From a virus, in IMG/VR virus record IMGVR_UViG_3300018080_000001, positions 106,100 through 170,099 of that record: a DNA stretch of 64,000 nt. The stretch is one strand, 5' to 3'. A program made the translations under genes and the position numbers. The notes under the pieces are model-generated. The model was not told where the DNA came from. It saw only the letters and a program-made list of their open reading frames with translations, and ran no database searches. Shown here one piece after another: positions 24,150 to 47,796 of this stretch (position 1 is the stretch's first letter; each line of letters starts with the position of its first letter).

Positions 24150-25733
24150 TTATTCTGCTAATATCCAAGAATCTTCGCTGTCATTTACATTATTTCCCGC
24201 AGAGGGTAAAGAATGTGTCGCAGCGCTTCTATTAAAATATATATCTGCGGTAGTACCCGAAATACTTGTGCTACCAGCATTAAAAATAAGACGACACGAT
24301 CCGTTTAAATAAAGAGCATAACGTGTTGCAGAAGATAATTCGTCAATAGTTTCTATTATAGCTCTAGAAAAATCTTCTAATTTCAAAATATCTCTGGGTG
24401 CCGTGTCTATGAATATATTAGACCCTTCAAATAAACCCCCATCATCGATAGCAATACAATCTATAGTACTATATGTAGGTTCAACATCAAATCTACAATA
24501 ACTAGCTGAACATTGAGCCCTATGATCAATAACAAGATGATCCATGGCAGCGAGAAGCAATGTAGATCTCTCGGTAACTACTGTTACACCGGTTCTCGTA
24601 CAAAAACAATTTAGATTAATTCCAGAATTAATAGAGTGTTTTCCGGGCTCTATGTATATATCCGTATCGGGAGCAGCGGGTGCACCGATCAAACTATTAC
24701 ACATTTGAAGGGACGATATATAACCAATGCTATACGCAGTATCATCAAAACCATCACTGTCTAAAAGAGGAACTGAATTAACACTTCCGCCACTTTGTAT
24801 CCAAATATTGTCATCAGTTGGAACCTTAAAACGACAAAGTGTTAAGATCGACATGGCATCACCCTTCCAAATAAAAGGTTTTGCTTCTGTAGAAGTAAAT
24901 ACGGTGTTTGCAATACCAAATTGTGAATTTGACCAATAAATGCTACCATCTACATCAAATGTTATAGACTGATTAATATTTATATTAGCAGCAGGATCAA
25001 TAATATTAAAAGAATCTGTTGCAGCTATACCCGCGAAATTATAAGGTATTTTAATAGCATTAGAAGAATTTTTGTAAATAGGAAAAGTATATCCACTCCC
25101 CGCACCACTAGTCATCTTAATAAATCTCCCAAACCATTGGTCATTAGTCCAAGACGCACCACTAACTGTAATATCTAATCCTGCTAATACACCACGATTA
25201 GTTAGAGTACCAATGGTATGAGGCCCGGAAAGAACTACGGGATCTCCAGTACATTCAAACGTTAATTGTCCATTTCTGTCAAGTTTTTTGTTAACATAAT
25301 TAGGAAAAGAAGTATATGTACCGGCCGTGTAACGAATATGTACACGATGTTTTATTAAATAAGGTATATCATTATATGCTTTATCTATAGTTACATACGG
25401 AATACTTTCACTACCATCTCCTGATACATCGCTACCGTTAGATCCATCAACATAAATATCCATATTTGCAGTTGTCTCATCCTTACCTATAAGACCATCA
25501 TTATCCACATCTCTATACTTTAAAGTTAGTACTTTTTCCGAAGAAAGAACTTCAGAATCTAAAGAACAAGAAACTTTTCCGGCATTTATATAATCTGCTA
25601 CAACATCTAATACTGCGGTGTCAAATTGAATTTCATGTAAGTCTACGCTCTTTTGTCCGTGTGCGATTATATTGAAATTCGGAAAAGACAAAAAACTAGA
25701 TGTGCTATTGATTAATGTTATTGTTTTAGACAT
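24150..25733 (-). CDS. Beta-helix tailspike-like protein, copy 1 of 5 (527 aa)
   Basis: N-terminal ~85 residues are the adapter shared by all five copies ('TSSFLSFPNFNIIAHGQKSV', 'LHEIQFDTAVLDVVADYIN'), then 'LKYRDVDNDGLIGKDE' and the pectin-lyase-like entry 'DIYVDGSNGSDVSGDGS'. The rest has short repeating strands with Asn/Ser/Cys ladders typical of a right-handed beta-helix that recognises or degrades surface polysaccharide. Catalytic residues cannot be assigned. The body is diverged from the other copies. Confidence 0.8.
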   Translation of the reverse strand: MSKTITLINSTSSFLSFPNFNIIAHGQKSVDLHEIQFDTAVLDVVADYINAGKVSCSLDSEVLSSEKVLTLKYRDVDNDGLIGKDETTANMDIYVDGSNGSDVSGDGSESIPYVTIDKAYNDIPYLIKHRVHIRYTAGTYTSFPNYVNKKLDRNGQLTFECTGDPVVLSGPHTIGTLTNRGVLAGLDITVSGASWTNDQWFGRFIKMTSGAGSGYTFPIYKNSSNAIKIPYNFAGIAATDSFNIIDPAANININQSITFDVDGSIYWSNSQFGIANTVFTSTEAKPFIWKGDAMSILTLCRFKVPTDDNIWIQSGGSVNSVPLLDSDGFDDTAYSIGYISSLQMCNSLIGAPAAPDTDIYIEPGKHSINSGINLNCFCTRTGVTVVTERSTLLLAAMDHLVIDHRAQCSASYCRFDVEPTYSTIDCIAIDDGGLFEGSNIFIDTAPRDILKLEDFSRAIIETIDELSSATRYALYLNGSCRLIFNAGSTSISGTTADIYFNRSAATHSLPSAGNNVNDSEDSWILAE

Positions 25734-25744
25734 GTTTCTTTATT

Positions 25745-27361
25745 CTATTTCATTGCAATAATGTCCCCACCTGTAGTAGTATAGCTATTACCGCTTGCAG
25801 GCCATGTCGCTTGTGTAGATCCGTCCCATGTAAATTGAATAGCTCCCGTCGCCCCTAAGATATTTACTACAACAGGACCTCCTTTTGCATAAAATATACA
25901 AGCTTCTTCGGCTTTAATAGCATATGCACCCGCTGTATTATTTCCCATCAAATAAGATACTGTTAATCTTCCTCTAGCCTGTATAGCTTGATTACATGCC
26001 GCAAAATAACAGGAATAAATTTTTGTGTGACCGGCAGCTAAAAATCCAATAGTAGAAAATCCAATCTGTTCTATTAATGTAGCAGATATAGCATTCATAG
26101 CATTCGAATATTCAAATGTAAGCCCACCGCAAATAGAGAAAGTTACTGCGTTATCATAAGATTTTATACCTTCAATACGACCTCGTACTACAACACCTGA
26201 TATTTCAGAATTATGCATAACAACATTAGTATTATCAGAAGTAGGAACCGCTCCATTGGAAGGTAAAATATTAGTACATACAGATCCAATATCATCTATT
26301 TGTGGATTGTCAAAAGTGGGTTCGTACAGTACCGATTGCCAATTTAACTGACTATTAAAAAGTTCTAAAAATACATATTTATCACTGTCAACTATACTAC
26401 AAAAAGGTAAATGCGCAGAAATACTTTTAAATGTAAATGATCTATCTCCACCAGTTGCTGAAGTCGCCACAAATTTAATAGCTCCTGCAAAAAATTCTAA
26501 ACCCCAAGGGGTTTCATGCGTATTCATATACAATTCGTCGTCTAATATACTGTCTCCTTCTACAATTACACGATAAGAACATGTGATTGTAACAGGACAG
26601 TCAACAATATTAAAAGTATCTCCAGGAGCATAACCATAATATTCTGTAAATGTTCTAATAGTATCAGAGTCGTTTTTCCAAACAGGTTGAACTTTCCCCG
26701 CCCAATTTCCGGTTAGCACATGAATGAACTTTCCATAATATTGATCGGAACTCCATCCAGGAGTACCCGTAACTTGTAAATCTTTTCCGAAATAAGAACC
26801 AAATAGATCAGGAGTAGAAGCTACATTCGTAGCGGTCCCTATAGCAAAAGGGCCTGCTACTATGGGATAACTTAATCCTGTAGCATCGAAAATTATTTTT
26901 CCATCTTCTATATATCTATGTTTAAAAAATGCTGGAAAACCTGTATAATTTCCTGCTACTTTGAATCTAACATGTATTTTATATTTTATAGTGAAAGGTA
27001 AACTTTCAAGAAATGCTAGTGTTTTATATGGATCGCTACTACTACCATTACCCGCATAATCGTCTCCATTATCACAATCAACATAAATATTAGATGCTGC
27101 TGCGGTTTCATCTTTACCAAAAGAGGCAGAAGAATCTGTTTCTCTATATTTCAGAGATAAAACTTCGGTATAAGTTAATTTTTGGTTATCTAAATAACAA
27201 TCAACTTTTCCTGAATAAATATAATTAGAAATTACTGTTAAGATACCTTCATCAAATTGTATCTCTTTCAGGTCTATATTGTAAGAACTATATTTTTCTA
27301 TATAAAAATTAGGAAAGGATAATGTATTGCTAGATTTGTTTGTTAATGTTACAGTTTTCAT
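25745..27361 (-). CDS. Beta-helix tailspike-like protein, copy 2 of 5 (538 aa)
   Basis: Same layout as its siblings. Its first ~30 residues ('MKTVTLTNKSSNTLSFPNFY') and the leader upstream are virtually identical to those of the copy at 31843-33402, while the beta-helix body is different. The stop is 11 bp from copy 1's start. Predicted receptor-binding/depolymerase role on the tail. Confidence 0.8.
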   Translation of the reverse strand: MKTVTLTNKSSNTLSFPNFYIEKYSSYNIDLKEIQFDEGILTVISNYIYSGKVDCYLDNQKLTYTEVLSLKYRETDSSASFGKDETAAASNIYVDCDNGDDYAGNGSSSDPYKTLAFLESLPFTIKYKIHVRFKVAGNYTGFPAFFKHRYIEDGKIIFDATGLSYPIVAGPFAIGTATNVASTPDLFGSYFGKDLQVTGTPGWSSDQYYGKFIHVLTGNWAGKVQPVWKNDSDTIRTFTEYYGYAPGDTFNIVDCPVTITCSYRVIVEGDSILDDELYMNTHETPWGLEFFAGAIKFVATSATGGDRSFTFKSISAHLPFCSIVDSDKYVFLELFNSQLNWQSVLYEPTFDNPQIDDIGSVCTNILPSNGAVPTSDNTNVVMHNSEISGVVVRGRIEGIKSYDNAVTFSICGGLTFEYSNAMNAISATLIEQIGFSTIGFLAAGHTKIYSCYFAACNQAIQARGRLTVSYLMGNNTAGAYAIKAEEACIFYAKGGPVVVNILGATGAIQFTWDGSTQATWPASGNSYTTTGGDIIAMK

Positions 27362-27443
27362 ATAGTATACCCCTTTCTTTTTCCCTTTTACAGGAGAATA
27401 CTATAAAGGTTATACTAGTATATTCTGTATAGAAATTTTTAAA

Positions 27444-27818
27444 TTATTTCTCTATACGTTTAGTTTTATATTTATTATTATAGTTTTCTAGAGCTTTAAA
27501 CATTTTTTTATTACCTGGAGATTCTTTATATAAGTCTCCACCACTCTTTCTAAAAATTAAGGTTTCGCTTTCATTATTAATAGATATAATATATAATATA
27601 TCTTTTATTATTTTATATCTAAGTACTAACTGAGTTATGAATCCAATAGTGCAAATTGCAAAAACATAAACACAAGAAACTATAGAAATACTTAACTGAA
27701 TAGAATCTATATCTTTTCCAAAATATAGGACTAAAACTAATATAGTTGTTACTAATAATCCGGGAATTATCCATCCAAGATATGACCACTTCCATAGTGA
27801 TAAATAAGAATATTTCAT
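27444..27818 (-). CDS. Small two-TM protein with chimeric sequence (124 aa)
   Basis: Residues 1-~92 (two membrane segments, 'YLGWIIPGLLVTTILVLVL' and 'VFAICTIGFITQLVLRYKII') are nearly identical to the N-terminus of the gene at 29400. The last ~32 residues ('GGDLYKESPGNKKMFKALEN') match the C-terminus of the gene at 33486. It therefore looks like a recombination product of the two, formed during duplication of the tailspike units. Confidence 0.65.
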   Translation of the reverse strand: MKYSYLSLWKWSYLGWIIPGLLVTTILVLVLYFGKDIDSIQLSISIVSCVYVFAICTIGFITQLVLRYKIIKDILYIISINNESETLIFRKSGGDLYKESPGNKKMFKALENYNNKYKTKRIEK

Positions 27819-27826
27819 TTCTTATC

Positions 27827-29407
27827 CTATGTATTTACTACAAATGAACCTGCGCTATCTGTAGCAGAAAGACCTGCTGCTGGATATGCAACAGTAGTTC
27901 CTCCTGTGACAAATCGAATATCTCCAAGAGTACCGCTTAGTGCTGATGCGTTGATTCTAATAATAGATAAAGCATCTATTTCTAGACCATACTTAGTAAT
28001 ATTTGCAGTTTCTCCATCAATATTTACACAATCAAAATTAGCACGTCTAACAAAAAAAGCACTATCTACAGTATCTCTAAAGTATACATAAGTGAAATGC
28101 CCGCAACCACCAATTGAATATATTCCACTAGAGAAACATCTACCAACATATGTATTATTTATAGTCACACTGGAATTATCATATATTTCTATTCCAGAAC
28201 AAGTTACTCCGTAAGTTTCCATATTTGAGTTATAGCCTGTAAATATAGTTCCTAGAACAGTAACATCAGCAAGATTACACTTACCGTAGTATATATCAAA
28301 AGCTCTCTTGTAAGATCCTGGAGCACCATCTGTATCAGTAATAATCGTACCAGGAAAATAATCCGTATTGGGTAATCTAAAATCTACATTCTTAATTTCA
28401 CTTGGAAATGATAAAGCTGCACCCCCAATAAATACATTTCCTTCAACCGTAGTCTTAGCAGCTTTTAATTTTACTCCATTAGTATGAAGGAAATTGTCAT
28501 TTCCAGAGATCTTTAGTCTATTATCTGATCCTGTTACTTCAAGATAAATACCGGTTACACCGAATCTGACTCCATTTGTATACAATGTACCTATGTCAAA
28601 CCTATTCTCTACATGTAAATCTATCCCGTGATTGACAGAAATTTTTACAGGTAAATCTACAATTTCAAATGTTTCAGACGTACTTGGTATAGAAAGCGAT
28701 TCTCCTATAGTAATTCTGTCTGCATCATTTGAATGAATAGCATAGCATTTACCAGAATTAGATCCAGAAGTCGCTCTAAGAAATTTTCCTACAAATTGAT
28801 CTGTTGTCCATCCTGCTCCAGCTACAGTTATATCATGAGCTACAGGAACACCCGCAGCAGTAATATTAGTAGTTCCTGTAATCGTGAAAGGTCCTGCAAC
28901 TGTAGTAGTATCTCCTTGTCCTTGAATTGTTAATTGACCAATTCCATGTATTTCATGAGTAATATCATAAGGAAACTCAGTATAAGTACCTTCGGTAAGT
29001 AGAACATTTATCTTATGTCCTATTTTCCTTGGTATTTTGGAAAGAGCATACGTAATAGTTTCATAAGGTTTACTGTCTGATCCGTCTCCTGCATAATTAT
29101 TTCCTGTAATTTGATTAACATAAATATCCAAATCTGTATCAGTAGTATCTTTCCCAATAGATCCATCTGATACTACATCTCTATATTTTAAACTAGTTAC
29201 ATCATCCGCAGATAATTGTACAGAATCCAAATAACAATAAGCTTTACTTGTAGAAACATAAGTAGATAAAATATCCAATATAGTACTATTAAATTGAATT
29301 TCGTTCAAATCTATTGTTTTTTGTTCCCCAACAGATAAAGTAAGATTAGCTTGTGGAAAAGACAATACATTTTGTGATATATTTGTTACAGTAATTATTT
29401 TAGACAT
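27827..29407 (-). CDS. Beta-helix tailspike-like protein, copy 3 of 5 (526 aa)
   Basis: Closely related to copy 4 (30056) over the first ~230 residues, including 'LKYRDVVSDGSIGKDTTDTD' and 'HKINVLLTEGTYTEFPYDIT', and again at the very end ('TVAYPAAGLSATDSAGSFVV'), with a diverged middle. That is the pattern expected if the receptor-contacting rungs diversify while attachment and end domains are kept. It ends 9 bp before the chimeric membrane gene. Confidence 0.8.
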   Translation of the reverse strand: MSKIITVTNISQNVLSFPQANLTLSVGEQKTIDLNEIQFNSTILDILSTYVSTSKAYCYLDSVQLSADDVTSLKYRDVVSDGSIGKDTTDTDLDIYVNQITGNNYAGDGSDSKPYETITYALSKIPRKIGHKINVLLTEGTYTEFPYDITHEIHGIGQLTIQGQGDTTTVAGPFTITGTTNITAAGVPVAHDITVAGAGWTTDQFVGKFLRATSGSNSGKCYAIHSNDADRITIGESLSIPSTSETFEIVDLPVKISVNHGIDLHVENRFDIGTLYTNGVRFGVTGIYLEVTGSDNRLKISGNDNFLHTNGVKLKAAKTTVEGNVFIGGAALSFPSEIKNVDFRLPNTDYFPGTIITDTDGAPGSYKRAFDIYYGKCNLADVTVLGTIFTGYNSNMETYGVTCSGIEIYDNSSVTINNTYVGRCFSSGIYSIGGCGHFTYVYFRDTVDSAFFVRRANFDCVNIDGETANITKYGLEIDALSIIRINASALSGTLGDIRFVTGGTTVAYPAAGLSATDSAGSFVVNT

Positions 29408-30047
29408 TTTTTTCCCTTTCCTTCATTATTCGATGCTGTTTCTCAACATCCCACTTAGGATATGCGAAACTTAAAACAGCATGTTCCAATTCATGAAGTA
29501 ATAAGTTAAGCGTTTTATCTATATTTCCACCCCACTCTACTTCGCACCATCTTCCTTTTTGTATTCCGTAATGTCTAAATACTTTCCCAAATCTTTCAGT
29601 TTTTATTGTACCTGGTTTTTTGAACGTAACAAAAACGTGGGGTGAAAAATATTTTGTATTAGCTCTTGGAGCAACTTTTTTAAGTTTTTCAATATTATTA
29701 TTGATATTAGTTTTTATTCCTGGTACAGGGATCATAACTTTCCACAATCTTTCTAGATCCTCTATACCTTTACTCTTTCTAAAAATTAAGATTTCGCTTT
29801 CATTATTAATAGATATAGTATATAATATATCTTTTATTATTTTATATCTAAGTACTAATTGAGTTATGAATCCAATAGTGCAAATTGCAAAAATAGAACT
29901 ACAAGAAACTGTAGAAATAATTAACTGCGTAGCATCCAGATTTTTTCCAAAGCATAGGACTAAAACTAATATAGTTGTTACTAATAATCCTGGAATTATC
30001 CAACCAAGATATGCCCACTTCCACAAAGGAAAACAAGGATATTTCAT
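29400..30047 (-). CDS. Membrane-anchored HExxH protein (215 aa)
   Basis: Two N-terminal membrane segments (residues ~10-70, shared with the gene at 27444), a linker, then a soluble domain ending in 'LNLLLHELEHAVLSFAYPKW'. HELEH is a zincin-type HExxH motif in a helix, so a membrane-tethered metallopeptidase is plausible. Overlaps the start of tailspike copy 3 by 8 bp. The substrate is unknown. Confidence 0.6.
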   Translation of the reverse strand: MKYPCFPLWKWAYLGWIIPGLLVTTILVLVLCFGKNLDATQLIISTVSCSSIFAICTIGFITQLVLRYKIIKDILYTISINNESEILIFRKSKGIEDLERLWKVMIPVPGIKTNINNNIEKLKKVAPRANTKYFSPHVFVTFKKPGTIKTERFGKVFRHYGIQKGRWCEVEWGGNIDKTLNLLLHELEHAVLSFAYPKWDVEKQHRIMKEREKNV

Positions 30048-30055
30048 TTCTTCTC

Positions 30056-31636
30056 CTACTTATTTACTACAAAAGAACCTGCACTATCTGTAACAGAAAG
30101 ACCTGCTGCGGGGTATGCAACAGTAGTTCCAGAAATATCCCAATGTATATCTCCTAAAAGACCACCTAATGTTGTATCTCTTATTTGTACACTACTTATT
30201 ACTCCTATATGCATACCATATTTCGTTATATTAGCTGCTATACCCCCAATATCTGAAAAACGACATTTGCTTCTTATAGCATAAAAAGCACTTTTAACAG
30301 CATCTTGAATAAAAATATTTTGACAATGAAGAGAAGTACTTTTTACATAAATTACATCATCAAAACATCTTCCAAAATAACTTTCTGACAAATCTACGTT
30401 AGAATTATAACTTTCTAACCCTGAAGCTGTACAATGATATACATTTAGATATGATCCATTCAATGCACAAAAGCCTCCTATAACTGAAACATAATCTATC
30501 TCACAAGAACCTCGTGAAACTTCAAATGATCGTTTCCATGAACCAGGGGCCAAATCTGTTTCGGTGAAAATGGTACTTGTTATATAATTTACATATATCA
30601 TATTAGTTACTCTCATATCTGTATTTTTTATTTCATTTGGATATATTAAATTTCCTATATTTATTGTAGCTGTCCCTTCAACTGCATTCCAAACAGAATT
30701 AAATTTTACAGCGTTAAAATAGGAATTATTTTGATTTCCTGAAAATTTAAAACCATAGTAAGTAGATCCATCAATTTTAAAATAAATCCCAGTGACTCCA
30801 AAGCTTAAACCGTAAAAGGAAGGAAAACTTTCATCTCCTCTCGTTTCTACGTGGAAATCAACTCCATGATTTAATTCTAGTTTAACAGGAAGATCAACTA
30901 TTTCAAATGTATCTGTAGGCGCAAGAGGCATAGAAGTTAATCCAAGAGTTATTTTATCTGCATCATTAGATTGAATTGAATAATAACGACCAGAATTAGC
31001 TCCAGAAGTTGGTCTTAAGAAATAACCAACAAATTGATCTGTTGTCCAACTAGCTCCCGCTACATTAATATTATGAGCTACTGTAGTACCATCAGCTACA
31101 ATATTTGTCCAAGAAGTTGTTGTATAAGGGCCATATATAACCGTAGGGTCGCCTTGTCCTTGAATAGTTAACTGACCTCCTTTATGAATCTCATGAGTAA
31201 GATCATAAGGAAATTCAGAATATGTTCCTGCTGCGATTAAAACATTTACTTTATGCTCTATCTTTTTAGGAACTCTTGAAAAAGCATAAGTTATTGTTGC
31301 ATATGGACTATCTGCCGATCCATCTCCTGAATAATTATCTCCAGTAGTAGGATTAACATAAATATCCAAATCTTCTATTGTAGTATCTTTTCCAATAGAT
31401 CCGTCTGATACTACATCCCTGTATTTCAAACTCTCCACATCATCTGCGGATAATTGCTGAGAATCCAAATAACAAGATGCTTTTCCTTCTTCAACATAAT
31501 TGGATATTACAGTTAATAAAATTTCTTCAAACTGTATTTCATTTAATTCTAGACTATAGGAATCACGATGGGATATATTAAATCCAGGAAAAGAAAGAAT
31601 TGAATTTGTATTGTTTGTTATTATAATACTCTTCAT
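30056..31636 (-). CDS. Beta-helix tailspike-like protein, copy 4 of 5 (526 aa)
   Basis: Adapter 'SIIITNNTNSILSFPGFNI', then 'LKYRDVVSDGSIGKDTTIED' and a beta-helix entry ('HKVNVLIAAGTYSEFPYDLT'). Nearly the same length as copy 3, with strong similarity at both ends and a distinct central region. The stop is 8 bp from the membrane HExxH gene. Confidence 0.8.
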   Translation of the reverse strand: MKSIIITNNTNSILSFPGFNISHRDSYSLELNEIQFEEILLTVISNYVEEGKASCYLDSQQLSADDVESLKYRDVVSDGSIGKDTTIEDLDIYVNPTTGDNYSGDGSADSPYATITYAFSRVPKKIEHKVNVLIAAGTYSEFPYDLTHEIHKGGQLTIQGQGDPTVIYGPYTTTSWTNIVADGTTVAHNINVAGASWTTDQFVGYFLRPTSGANSGRYYSIQSNDADKITLGLTSMPLAPTDTFEIVDLPVKLELNHGVDFHVETRGDESFPSFYGLSFGVTGIYFKIDGSTYYGFKFSGNQNNSYFNAVKFNSVWNAVEGTATINIGNLIYPNEIKNTDMRVTNMIYVNYITSTIFTETDLAPGSWKRSFEVSRGSCEIDYVSVIGGFCALNGSYLNVYHCTASGLESYNSNVDLSESYFGRCFDDVIYVKSTSLHCQNIFIQDAVKSAFYAIRSKCRFSDIGGIAANITKYGMHIGVISSVQIRDTTLGGLLGDIHWDISGTTVAYPAAGLSVTDSAGSFVVNK

Positions 31637-31667
31637 TATTTATAACTCCTTATTTTTTTCTATTTAA

Positions 31668-31829
31668 TTAATCTAATTCTAATTTATCTATGCGCTCTTC
31701 CATTTCTTTTAACGTCTTCTTATCTATTTTTTCGTCTAAAGCCAAACCATAAAAATGTAATCCGTATTTCTGTATAAGAATTTTTTCATTTACTTTCAAA
31801 AATTCTTTCATTTTTTTTGAAATAGCCAT
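31668..31829 (-). CDS. Small helical protein (53 aa)
   Basis: ATG at 31829 behind AAGGAG. Sequence 'MAISKKMKEFLKVNEKILIQ' to 'LKEMEERIDKLELD' forms a helix with a short coil at the end. It fills the gap between tailspike copies 4 and 5. Confidence 0.5.
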   Translation of the reverse strand: MAISKKMKEFLKVNEKILIQKYGLHFYGLALDEKIDKKTLKEMEERIDKLELD

Positions 31830-31842
31830 AAAAATCTCCTTT

Positions 31843-33402
31843 TTAGTATCCGACTATTTGAGAACCGAGTGTATCGTTTACTTCGGCGTTGGCCGCTGGA
31901 TACGCTGTGTCTATTGCGCCACCGCTTAGCCATTTTATCGCCGTTGCCGCACCTCCAGCACCCACAAGAGTGCATGAGGAATTCTCGATAACCGCCCTGC
32001 TTCCCTGGCCCATCGCAATTGCATTCGTCACGTTAGCCGCAGTACCTTCCAGACCTTTAATCGTGACGCCACAAACACCAGGCCACAATTTAACACCGTA
32101 CTGTGCACTTTCTACAAACACAGCATCAACATTGGCGGAACCTACCATCGGCAATCTAACCGCTTGATTGTTGGTTTTTGCCTCAATATAAATTCCCGCT
32201 ACTCGTACACAACCAACAGACGCGTACGCATCAACACCATAGCCATTAGTCGCGTTAGCAATTGCACAATAACCAACCAGGCAATTCGAATACGCAACAT
32301 CAATACCTTTGTCGAACACAAAAAGTCTTGTAATGTCGCTGCTTCCGTAAACTGTTAGATAATCAGTGCCCGTCCCCTTTTTCATAATACAATTAGTATT
32401 ATAGTTACTAACAAGACCTGAATCATCTACAACATCCGTCGGTGAAGGATAATAGTACAACCCCATATCTGTAGTAGTGTCATGAAATTGTACAGTACCT
32501 GAAATAATAGATCCTGTCATATTAATACAACAATCCTGCACAACCAAGCGTTTACTAGAAAAATCTATATCCAGCCCGAACAATCCGTGGTTAGCAAAAT
32601 AAGTATTGCCTCCACCGCCAATTAAATTTTTAAATTGATCGGAAACAATGGTCACACCAGGCTCTACAACCTTAAAAGTTTCTCCCGCAGAAAGAGCGAT
32701 ATACGTATACTCAATTCTTAAAGAGGTAGTTGTATTCGAAACAATCGCGGCGACTTCACCTACTCTTGCACCACTCGTAAATTTAACATATTTTCCACGA
32801 TAGGCATTAGAAGTCAAACCACCACCAACAACAGGAATATCAGCCACGTTATTAGTCTGTATTACTGTTGGTCCTGCTACATCAATTGTCATTTCAGTGG
32901 ATGCATCGACTAAAGCGAGCGAACCATCAAAAGAGAGGAACCCAGCATCAATAAAAGAATGATCTATATTGGATGGCCATGCACTGTAAGTACCAGCGGC
33001 AATATGAATATGTACAACGTGTTTAATTTTAGTAGGAACATCCGCATATGCTCTGGTAATCGTACTATAAGGAGAACTGGAACTACCATCGCCTAAAACA
33101 TCAGCTCCCGTAGTAGCGTTAACATATATATCCATATCCGCAACAGTTTCATCTTTACCAATAGATCCGTCATTATATACATCTCTGTATTTTAACGTTA
33201 ATATTTCACTGGGAGAAAGCTCTACAGAATCTAAGTAACAAGATAGTTTAACATCAGTAACATAACCATAAATTATATTTAATAATTCCTCATCAAATTG
33301 AATTTCATTTAATTCTATATTGTAAGAACTATATTTTTCTATATAAAAATTAGGAAAGGATAATGTATTGCTAGATTTGTTTGTTAATGTTACAGTTTTC
33401 AT
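31843..33402 (-). CDS. Beta-helix tailspike-like protein, copy 5 of 5 (519 aa)
   Basis: The N-terminus is virtually identical to copy 2. 'LKYRDVYNDGSIGKDETVAD' and 'DIYVNATTGADVLGDGSSSS' follow. The C-terminal half is clearly more GC-rich than the other copies and its own adapter (plus-strand 31889-32330 is full of GCC/CGC), which suggests a body acquired from another source and joined to the resident adapter. Ends 'GAIDTAYPAANAEVNDTLGS', matching the end motif of copies 3 and 4. Confidence 0.8.
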   Translation of the reverse strand: MKTVTLTNKSSNTLSFPNFYIEKYSSYNIELNEIQFDEELLNIIYGYVTDVKLSCYLDSVELSPSEILTLKYRDVYNDGSIGKDETVADMDIYVNATTGADVLGDGSSSSPYSTITRAYADVPTKIKHVVHIHIAAGTYSAWPSNIDHSFIDAGFLSFDGSLALVDASTEMTIDVAGPTVIQTNNVADIPVVGGGLTSNAYRGKYVKFTSGARVGEVAAIVSNTTTSLRIEYTYIALSAGETFKVVEPGVTIVSDQFKNLIGGGGNTYFANHGLFGLDIDFSSKRLVVQDCCINMTGSIISGTVQFHDTTTDMGLYYYPSPTDVVDDSGLVSNYNTNCIMKKGTGTDYLTVYGSSDITRLFVFDKGIDVAYSNCLVGYCAIANATNGYGVDAYASVGCVRVAGIYIEAKTNNQAVRLPMVGSANVDAVFVESAQYGVKLWPGVCGVTIKGLEGTAANVTNAIAMGQGSRAVIENSSCTLVGAGGAATAIKWLSGGAIDTAYPAANAEVNDTLGSQIVGY

Positions 33403-35094: not shown

Positions 35095-35128
35095 CATATC
35101 CTCACCCTATACGTGTTAAATAAAATAT

Positions 35129-35318
35129 GGTGCTGGCTGGTCCTGCTCCAGCTAAATAAAATGTGTCCTCCTAGTGCGGTGTTCTCCTACCACCACACAG
35201 GGCCAAGAGACGGGCCGCTGAGGAGAAGTCAAGCGGCGTTTGAGGTCTAGTAAACCTCACGATCTCAGACCGTTTCTAGGACGCTTAGCAGTGTATCTAA
35301 GCTCCACATCGCAGCACC
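35129..35318 (-). ncRNA. Putative structured RNA downstream of tRNA-Leu
   Basis: About 190 nt of clearly higher GC than the flanks, no reading frame. Its ends pair: GGTGCTG (RNA 5' end, plus coordinates 35312-35318) with CAGCACC (35129-35135). Just inside the 3' end is a hairpin GCTGG-AGCAGGA-CCAGC, so the 3' side has the geometry of a tRNA T-arm plus 7-bp acceptor. Further hairpins: GCTTAG/CTAAGC, GAGGTTT/AGACCTC, CCGCT/AGCGG. It begins 3 nt after the tRNA and is probably co-transcribed. The T-loop consensus TTC is absent. Unidentified. Confidence 0.6.
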
Positions 35319-35320
35319 CG

Positions 35321-35403
35321 TGCGAGAAGTGGGATTCGAACCCACAAGGGATTTCTCCCGTTGGATTTTAAGTCCAATCCGTAGACCGTTCCGGCATTCT
35401 CGC
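35321..35403 (-). tRNA. tRNA-Leu(UAA)
   Basis: Complete class II cloverleaf: acceptor GCGAGAA/TTCTCGC, D stem CCG/CGG, anticodon arm TTGGA-CTTAAAA-TCCAA with anticodon TAA, long variable arm GGGA/TCCC, T arm GTGGG-TTCGAAT-CCCAC, discriminator A. CCA is not encoded. UUA-type Leu codons are frequent in this AT-rich genome, a usual reason for phages to carry this tRNA. Confidence 0.93.
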
Positions 35404-37786: not shown

Positions 37787-38311
37787 CTAAAAGCTTCTTT
37801 CATTCAATTCTTTGGCCAACGCTTCTCTAGCTCGGGCCAAATCCTTTTCCGTGTGAATACTTCCACCGGTATTCATATCCAAATACCACTGAATAACATC
37901 TGATCTCTTCTCCAAATCATTTACATGGAAACTAAAACGAGCAGTTAGGATATCTAAGCTGCCTGTAAAATCTTTGTATAAACAATCAAAAGCCGGAACT
38001 TCATTATGTAAAAACCCTAAAGCCGCTGATAATCTTTGTTTACCATCCACAATTTCGATAGGAGTATCAAAACCTTTAAACCAAGAAGAACAGTTCCAAA
38101 ATATTTCTCTTCCTGACATGCCATTTTTTAATATATACTCTACATAAGCACTTTTCTGTTCTGTTGTCCAAACATAGTTCCGCTGATAATCAGGATCTAT
38201 GTCCAACCCAAGCTCTTCAGCTTGGTCCTTTAACCAGGTTTCTAAATGAACCCATGACATATCAATACGATATTTACTGCGCGTAAATGATCTAATTTCT
38301 TGAAAATTCAT
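37787..38311 (-). CDS. DUF262-family protein (174 aa)
   Basis: 'DPDYQRNYVWTTEQKSAYVE' (~38-57) and 'IEIVDGKQRLSAALGFL' (~85-101) are the hallmark motifs of DUF262, a ParB/sulfiredoxin-like fold with a DGQQR-type nucleotide-binding loop. DUF262 is found in GmrS of the type IV GmrSD restriction enzyme and in other defence proteins. Here only this domain is present (no DUF1524 HNH nuclease), as is common in phage stand-alone forms, perhaps acting as a DNA-interacting NTP-hydrolysing or decoy protein. Confidence 0.8.
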   Translation of the reverse strand: MNFQEIRSFTRSKYRIDMSWVHLETWLKDQAEELGLDIDPDYQRNYVWTTEQKSAYVEYILKNGMSGREIFWNCSSWFKGFDTPIEIVDGKQRLSAALGFLHNEVPAFDCLYKDFTGSLDILTARFSFHVNDLEKRSDVIQWYLDMNTGGSIHTEKDLARAREALAKELNERSF

Positions 38312-38349: not shown

Positions 38350-38452
38350 TGGTTACAATCTAATTTTTTCACAATATACATATATGACATGCGCTGGAAT
38401 CTTGGTTACAACATAATTTTTTCACAACATCCATATCTGACATGCGCTGAAA
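38350..38452. repeat. Imperfect 50-bp tandem duplication at a gene 3' end
   Basis: 38350-38399 and 38403-38452 are ~80% identical ('ggttacaatctaattttttc' against 'ggttacaacataattttttc', both reaching 'tgacatgcgctg'). The second copy encodes the C-terminus of the DUF4304 gene; the first lies at and beyond its stop, so the gene end was duplicated and then drifted. Confidence 0.7.
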
Positions 38453-38845
38453 CCAAGGAAGACCATATTCTTTCACTGCATCACGTTGTTCCACTGCTAT
38501 ATGAGAATCAACAGCTCCTTTAATTTTCCACCAAAGATCACAAGGAACTGGCAATAAAAGTCCAATACGGGTTCTTACCGTGCAATCGTATTCTTTCGGA
38601 AGTCCTTTAAATTTAGGGGTATCTAAAAACTCACTGGTCCCAGGATAATATACTCCCAGATTTATAGTGATACGACCTTCGTCTCCTTCATTCCATCTAC
38701 TAGATTGAACATTTACTACTTCTATTCGTTCCTCGAATTCTCGATAAAAAGTTCTAGCCTTCTTCTTGAACCCTTGTTCCTTAAGAAAAGGGACGAGTCC
38801 TTCTCGTATAGTCTCATCAATTATTTTTGAAATAGTGCCCATCAC
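38369..38845 (-). CDS. DUF4304-family protein (158 aa)
   Basis: 'LVPFLKEQGFKKKARTFYRE' followed by 'EVVNVQSSRWNEGDEGRITI', 'NLGVYYP' and 'DLWWKI' matches the DUF4304 pattern, a bacterial family of unknown function sometimes linked to toxin-immunity neighbourhoods. The C-terminus 'CCNQDSSACHICIL' arises from the tandem duplication at 38350-38452. Confidence 0.7.
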   Translation of the reverse strand: MMGTISKIIDETIREGLVPFLKEQGFKKKARTFYREFEERIEVVNVQSSRWNEGDEGRITINLGVYYPGTSEFLDTPKFKGLPKEYDCTVRTRIGLLLPVPCDLWWKIKGAVDSHIAVEQRDAVKEYGLPWFQRMSDMDVVKKLCCNQDSSACHICIL

Positions 38846-39294: not shown

Positions 39295-39651
39295 TTACTC
39301 TTCACCATGTTCAATAGGATTCAACCAATCCAAAATAAACTCTGCTGCTTTATATACATCTTCTTCATTAAATGAAATTTTTTTCTTATATGTTTCTTCA
39401 TCAATACCATCCATACAAGAATTTTCCATTTTATAAACTACAATACCATCTGCATTTTTACAATTCGAGAAATAAGCTACGCGACCTTTAGCGCATGGTT
39501 GGACACTAGAAGAATAGAGTTGTACGCAGAATCCGTTTTCTCTCCCATTGTGATAAGTAACAACACAACCATTCAATGCGTAGTCGTTAAACTTCATTTC
39601 CAAAATACACAGAACAGCTTCTGCTTGCTTCCAAGTTCTGATGAGACCCAT
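39295..39651 (-). CDS. Hypothetical 118-aa protein directly downstream of the structured RNA
   Basis: 'TWKQAEAVLCILEMKFNDYA' and 'NGFCVQLYSSSVQPC' suggest a small alpha/beta protein. Its ATG lies 25 nt after the closing stem of the RNA at 39676-40001, with AAAGGGG between, so it may be expressed by read-through from the RNA's promoter. Confidence 0.5.
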   Translation of the reverse strand: MGLIRTWKQAEAVLCILEMKFNDYALNGCVVTYHNGRENGFCVQLYSSSVQPCAKGRVAYFSNCKNADGIVVYKMENSCMDGIDEETYKKKISFNEEDVYKAAEFILDWLNPIEHGEE

Positions 39652-39675
39652 GATATTACCCCTTTCTGTTCATAT

Positions 39676-40001
39676 AAAACTAAACACTACATGGTGGATG
39701 ACATCGCTGTACCTTCCCAGGCGCTTTGGTGTGACCCGTTGTCGGCTACACTGGCTTTTCCACCTTTCGGTTTCGTCCTCCTAGAACTTAACGTTCATCA
39801 TCGGAGTAACACCATACCGCTTCCGAGTCCTGTAAATCTTGCCCTTTTGGATACCTTACTGGACTTATTAGCTTACGCTTTGGCCAACCCTACTCAATTC
39901 GGGATGCTCGGTATCGAAGGCTCAACAGTCATCGCGTCCACTTTCCCACGTTTTCGGCAGACGTTCTTCAGCCTGTCATCCACCATGTAGTATTTAGTTT
40001 T
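39676..40001 (-). ncRNA. Putative large structured non-coding RNA (~326 nt)
   Basis: A GC-rich island in an AT-rich genome. The two ends are inverted repeats of 28 bp (39676-39703 and 39974-40001) with a single difference that still allows a G-U pair, so the transcript would close on one long stem. A promoter of the shared type reads into it from 40057. Internal tetraloop-like hairpins such as GCGTAAGC, CCGAAAGG and TCGGAAG...CTCCGA are visible. The long frame on the opposite strand has no promoter or ribosome site. I do not recognise it as RNase P, tmRNA, a self-splicing intron, ROOL or GOLLD. Confidence 0.75.
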
Positions 40002-40029
40002 CAAAGAACTTTATTAATTTCTAATATAT

Positions 40030-40057
40030 AATATAGTCTTTAAAACTTATCTGTCAA
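40030..40057 (-). promoter_or_regulatory. Promoter for the structured RNA
   Basis: On the minus strand TTGACA (40052-40057), 16-bp spacer, TATATT (40030-40035); transcription would begin about 20 nt before the closing stem of the RNA. Shares the ATATATTGACAG core. Confidence 0.7.
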
Positions 40058-40071
40058 TATATCTAACTAAA

Positions 40072-40329
40072 TTATTCTTCTTTTTCTTCTAGATAAAACC
40101 ATCTGGCAACAAAACAAGAATACAATTCCAAATAGGGACTTTTAAGACAGTACAAAATTCTAGTAACTTCTTCCCATTCGTCAACACCAAGAAAATCTAC
40201 TAAGCCAACTTGAGCTTCAAGTTTTATTAGTTCATCAATAGTAGATACCTCGACTATCATTTCTCTAATAATAATTAAGTCCTCGTTAAATTCAGTTGGA
40301 GTTTTCTCTGCATCGATTAACTTGATCAT
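40072..40329 (-). CDS. Acidic hypothetical protein (85 aa)
   Basis: Helical and acidic ('MIVEVSTIDELIKLEAQVGL'), expressed from its own shared-type promoter with the ribosome site GGAGGGAAATATC. The promoter suggests early or abundant expression. Nothing recognised. Confidence 0.6.
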   Translation of the reverse strand: MIKLIDAEKTPTEFNEDLIIIREMIVEVSTIDELIKLEAQVGLVDFLGVDEWEEVTRILYCLKSPYLELYSCFVARWFYLEEKEE

Positions 40330-47716: not shown

Positions 47717-47796
47717 TGGGGGAGATGGCAGGATTCGAACCTGCATGTTCCCCTTTGGGTGAGTTTTCCACGGTGGCCACCTACTCTACATCTCCC
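47717..47796 (-). tRNA. tRNA-like gene, non-canonical centre, identity unresolved
   Basis: The 3' half is textbook: T arm GCAGG-TTCGAAT-CCTGC, acceptor GGAGATG/CATCTCC, then C and an encoded CCA. A G before position 1 could pair with that C, as in tRNA-His. Between U8-A9 and the T arm, however, the 42 nt do not fold into normal D and anticodon arms; they contain the palindrome GGTGGCCACC and a small hairpin ACCC-AAA-GGGG. A Ser(GGA)-like loop can be read but is unpaired. Either a highly divergent tRNA or a tRNA-like RNA. Confidence 0.6.

Follow-up and report, generated by a model that had tools for sequence, protein, structure and literature searches.

In Escherichia coli, the rRNA antitermination complex is recruited by boxA, which is both necessary and sufficient for this purpose, and active 30S subunits depend critically on a leader-trailer helix of more than 17 bp (PMC10250234). 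The stalk of the 16S rRNA is a cleavage site of RNase III in Staphylococcus aureus (PMC3386247), and the transcription of untranslated CRISPR arrays is raised by boxA (PMC7862264). Phages also carry RNAs such as GOLLD and ROOL, which are of unknown function and are often located by tRNA islands (PMC12286853). The function and the biogenesis of these large phage RNAs are open questions.

The DNA analysed here, hereafter the window, comprises the last 64 kb of a virus record of 170,099 bases. A gap of 420 nt between two co-directed genes (40072-40329 and 39295-39651), belonging to a long cluster on the minus strand, contains in that strand's order the promoter-like sequence TTGACA-16-TATATT, the string GTTCTTTGAAAACT and a unit of 326 nt (39676-40001) closed by a long helix. 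GTTCTTTGAAAACT is identical to boxA, the antitermination signal in the rRNA operons of Firmicutes. The same string is present before or between the 16S and 23S rRNA in five operons (L044, L049, L051, L053 and L056). In L049 (16S and 23S) and L053 (23S), the complement of AAAACT and the next bases lies just past the rRNA, from which it follows that the rRNA leader-trailer helix starts inside boxA. The phage unit shows the same geometry as the rRNA operons, with promoter, boxA and helix in succession and a non-coding core.

Promoter, boxA and closing helix

The features of the locus are collected in Table 1. The promoter-like site had been noted ahead of the unit in the first-pass annotation and was recovered here by a consensus scan; the extended -35 that it was said to share with several phage genes fits an excess of ATATTGACAG-like sites in the window (15 observed against 6.6 expected). 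Transcription is predicted from the sequence to start near 40023, about 14 nt ahead of boxA. The exact boxA, which lies downstream of the promoter, had been overlooked, as had the missing terminator before the gene 39295-39651. A single copy of GTTCTTTGAAAAC is present in the 170-kb record, against 0.015 expected, and the chance expectation of an exact boxA within the leader is 2e-6. No NusB or RNase III gene was found in the 170-kb record and host factors are therefore assumed.

Table 1. Features of the RNA unit and its surroundings (positions in the window)
Feature	Positions	Strand	Basis or remark
Promoter-like site TTGACA-16-TATATT	40030..40057	-	consensus scan, 11/12
boxA GTTCTTTGAAAACT	39996..40009	-	exact 13-mer, single in record
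5' arm of closing (leader-trailer) helix, begins inside boxA	39974..40001	-	28 bp, one U-G
Non-coding core, 270 nt, 51% GC	39704..39973	-	codon log-odds, MFE, Rfam
3' arm (trailer) of closing helix	39676..39703	-	inverted repeat; imperfect boxA pairing on to 39668
AGAAAGGGG, Shine-Dalgarno-like, of the next gene	39659..39667	-	read from sequence; just outside 36-nt helix
Downstream gene, 118 aa, phrog_6319	39295..39651	-	no terminator between gene and RNA

The arms of the helix, 40001-39974 (AAAACTAAATACTACATGGTGGATGACA) and 39703-39676 (TGTCATCCACCATGTAGTGTTTAGTTTT), form 28 bp, 27 of them Watson-Crick and one U-G, in agreement with the earlier description of a 326-nt unit with 28-bp inverted repeats and a single G-U. 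The helix, longer than 17 bp, begins at offset 0 of AAAAC inside boxA (AAAACT...AGTTTT), and it is boxA that ties this stem to the leader-trailer design of rRNA. Arms extended to 36 nt are still 89% complementary and include all of boxA, which would therefore be covered in the finished helix. The closing-stem score of the unit is 27.5. Among 1500 random positions of the window, the 99th percentile of this score was 15 and the maximum 27.5, probably the stem itself, with 19 as the next value; chance boxA sites in the scans mostly reached 11.5 or less and a few 12-14.

Also on the minus strand and near the RNA, 37787-38311 and 38369-38845 encode small proteins in which a partial GmrSD_N domain and a DUF4304 domain were recognised; these may be host-takeover or counter-defence genes. 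Five consecutive large proteins of about 520-540 aa (24150-33402, minus strand) each have a short stretch matching the tail family phrog_4577.

Coding potential, fold and homologues of the core

Scored by phage codon usage, all six frames of the unit had negative log-odds (-0.49 to -0.84), the sample genes being above 0. The earlier annotation had noted that no coding frame has translation signals, and a protein-coding reading, including that of a 163-aa antisense frame (39499-39990), is rejected on codon usage. The stretch had further been described as a GC-rich island; the core is indeed richer in GC than the window (51% against 34%), but several other stretches of the window are equally GC-rich. 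A second GC-rich island (35110-35320, minus strand) lies directly 3' of a tRNA-Leu (35320-35403) and has a 7-bp closing stem (GGTGCTG/CAGCACC) and an MFE z of -2.98, with no shuffle as stable; it has no Rfam match and is possibly a second structured RNA.

The full 326-nt unit has an MFE of -117.9 kcal/mol (z -6.4 against shuffles); once the arms are removed, however, the core is no more stable than shuffled sequence (z 0.13), so that the excess stability comes entirely from the stem and the evidence for structure rests on the helix. The proposal of a structured RNA is accordingly upheld for its closing stem but not for an elaborate fold of the core, which has no homologue for covariation. The flat score is no argument against structure in the core, since the core of another viral RNA with compensatory changes (L036, see below) gave a z of -0.33 and a GOLLD domain one of -1.45.

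No Rfam family matched the unit at gathering or permissive thresholds. The SSU, LSU and 5S models did not match the core, and the conserved 3' domain of GOLLD (RF02032), ROOL, OLE, RNase P and group I and II introns were unmatched in the unit, in keeping with the first impression that the RNA does not resemble GOLLD or ROOL. Inspection of the core by eye raised the idea of a hammerhead, which was abandoned for want of the CUGANGA core residues. Elsewhere on the minus strand, a weak Rfam tRNA match (47720-47795, 35.7 bits) is not called by ARAGORN.

Searches of phages and plasmids, and boxA-framed searches of viral sequences and of genomes, turned up no homologue of the core, which is thus an orphan without covariation. 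In Blast comparisons with phages and plasmids, the unit matched AT-rich or boxA-like fragments only. Relatives sought through the neighbouring gene P0001, the terminase and the topoisomerase gave no match to the RNA; one contig has an identical terminase, but it stops about 2 kb upstream of that gene, and the RNA is unmatched in it. The nearest annotated phage by terminase, Rctr197k (36% identity), shares only one 15-mer. Similarity of the core to the GOLLD 5' domains, to the RNA of L036 and L040 and to the second GC-rich island was not above shuffles. The viral locus L016 locally shares GGACGAAACC-AAAGG with the unit, a likeness reached by 2 of 200 shuffles. About 300-420 nt past boxA, on the minus strand of L016, a stretch appears hammerhead-like by eye (GGACGAAACC...GGTC TTAGGT...ACCTAA CTGATGAGTCC); it has no Rfam match at E up to 1.

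boxA in other viral contigs

A scan of viral contigs for a promoter and boxA identified 15 loci. GOLLD RNA is located just downstream of these elements in four (L021:5209, L022:9158 and L025:951 on the plus strand, and L027 on the minus strand), tRNA arrays stand behind boxA in two (L019 and L026), and most of the remaining loci head small genes. The four GOLLD leaders carry an exact boxA preceded by a TTCGG...CCGAA hairpin; being interrelated, they represent perhaps two lineages, and the association of GOLLD with boxA is without a denominator since the loci were chosen by boxA. In L095, a phage record of 635 kb, the variant GTTCTTTGAAATATTG precedes the match to a GOLLD-like locus, more distantly related than these four, by about 60 nt. 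A literature search, with most subscription papers outside its scope, found no paper treating both GOLLD and boxA.

A second scan, for boxA and a trailer complement at the spacing of the window unit with 6 bp of pairing required, gave 16 viral loci. In two of these, L036 (13717-14057, plus strand) and L040 (minus strand, boxA at 2602-2590), a stem of 15 perfect base pairs that begins within boxA surrounds a non-coding RNA of 333-337 nt (about 335 nt), which is absent from Rfam. Compensatory changes between the two, C-G to U-A and A-U to G-C, were read from the alignment of a hairpin. Longer spans of the pattern in viral contigs yielded chance sites only (stem score 8.5 or less). Stems starting in boxA also enclose small open reading frames in L013 (stem score 22; minus strand, boxA at 1754 of the reverse complement), which came from a scan without the 6-bp pairing requirement, and in L062 (stem score 18; 1106, plus strand), and the boxA-stem cassette is therefore no proof of a non-coding product. 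The combination of promoter, boxA and trailer complement can serve as a search key, which has already given one unlisted RNA and the four GOLLD loci.

Probable role of the unit and comparison with known systems

On balance, the reading that we narrowly favour is that of an untranslated phage RNA of about 300 nt which is made and excised by the host's rRNA expression machinery and acts in trans. RNA polymerase would start about 14 nt ahead of boxA, and the nascent boxA would be bound by NusB-S10, allowing the polymerase to transcribe the untranslated region processively. Once it emerges, the trailer would anneal to the leader, so that the core is closed and boxA covered. Host RNase III would then cut the 28-bp helix and free the RNA of about 300 nt from the phrog_6319 mRNA, whose Shine-Dalgarno site would be left exposed. 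The loading of NusB-S10, the cut, the stability of the product and its action in trans are suggested by analogy with rRNA operons; the role in trans of the freed RNA is a guess, as the core has neither homologue nor covariation.

This reading is favoured by the exact, single-copy boxA between promoter and stem, hardly expected in a leader by chance, and by a helix that starts at the same point of AAAAC as do both helices of L049 (16S and 23S) and the one round the 23S rRNA in L053. It is also favoured by a stem score far from that of chance sites together with a non-coding core, and by the occurrence of boxA at the head of GOLLD and tRNA arrays and, with a helix, round a different RNA in L036 and L040. 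It is weakened by the orphan state of the core, its shuffle-like fold, the missing terminator and the reading frames enclosed in L013 and L062. The first-pass annotation had proposed an RNA with its own promoter; promoter, stem and non-coding nature stand, but the RNA may not stand alone, there being no terminator-like site ahead of the gene 39295-39651, and the unit is best read as placed in the leader of an operon of small genes.

The missing terminator likewise keeps alive a rather unlikely alternative, in which the unit would be a cis-acting 5' leader controlling the phrog_6319 gene and the operon behind it through antitermination, RNase III-dependent stability or a switch, with no function as a separate RNA. 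The start codon of that gene lies 25 nt past the end of the trailer and other viral boxA leaders head small genes, as such a leader would have it; however, a core of 270 nt and 51% GC is long for a leader with the Shine-Dalgarno site outside the helix, and boxA precedes large non-coding RNAs at the GOLLD loci and in L036 and L040. Quite improbable is a boxA decoy, an RNA that would bind NusB-S10 and so starve host rRNA transcription or divert antitermination to phage genes; the perfect match of a phage-borne string to the rRNA boxA agrees with it, but the completed helix covers boxA and would hide the decoy, which would also have no need of the 270-nt core. A small MITE-like mobile element, suggested by long, near-perfect terminal inverted repeats of 28 bp around a stretch of different base composition, is scarcely credible given its one copy in the record, the absence of matches in phage or plasmid records, flanks (GTTCATAT and CAAAGAAC) that form no target-site duplication, and a promoter and exact boxA at one end.

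Returning to the excised RNA made by host machinery, we tentatively consider a broader proposal, in which phages of several lineages would use a mini-rRNA-gene cassette (boxA and sometimes a helix starting in it) for structured RNAs, GOLLD included, so that the host's ribosome-biogenesis machinery transcribes and folds them and they mature like pre-rRNA. Through the boxA at their head, some phage RNAs at least are connected with antitermination by Nus factors, and the RNA of the window is connected with an rRNA-type processing helix as well. The point of interest is the occurrence of an rRNA-type cassette on phage RNAs, the core in the window being itself an orphan.

Among the known systems, boxA-led CRISPR arrays and the leaders of lambda-type nut/put sites resemble the unit in having boxA before untranslated or long transcripts (PMC7862264, PMC10250234). 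They differ in that the unit is without repeats and no phage N gene was identified, and, as judged by their descriptions, they are themselves without a closing trailer helix. GOLLD (RF02032) is likewise a phage non-coding RNA with promoter and boxA just upstream at four viral loci; unlike the unit, it is more than twice as long and has no helix starting in boxA. The RNA of L036 and L040 shares with the unit boxA, a helix from boxA, a similar span, a non-coding nature and absence from Rfam, the two cores being no more similar in sequence than shuffles. Compared with Firmicutes pre-16S and pre-23S rRNA, the phage unit is phage-borne, has a protein gene next to it and encloses a non-rRNA core of 270 nt instead of 1.5-2.9 kb, and it has in common with them the boxA string, a helix that begins inside boxA and the trailer complement after the RNA.
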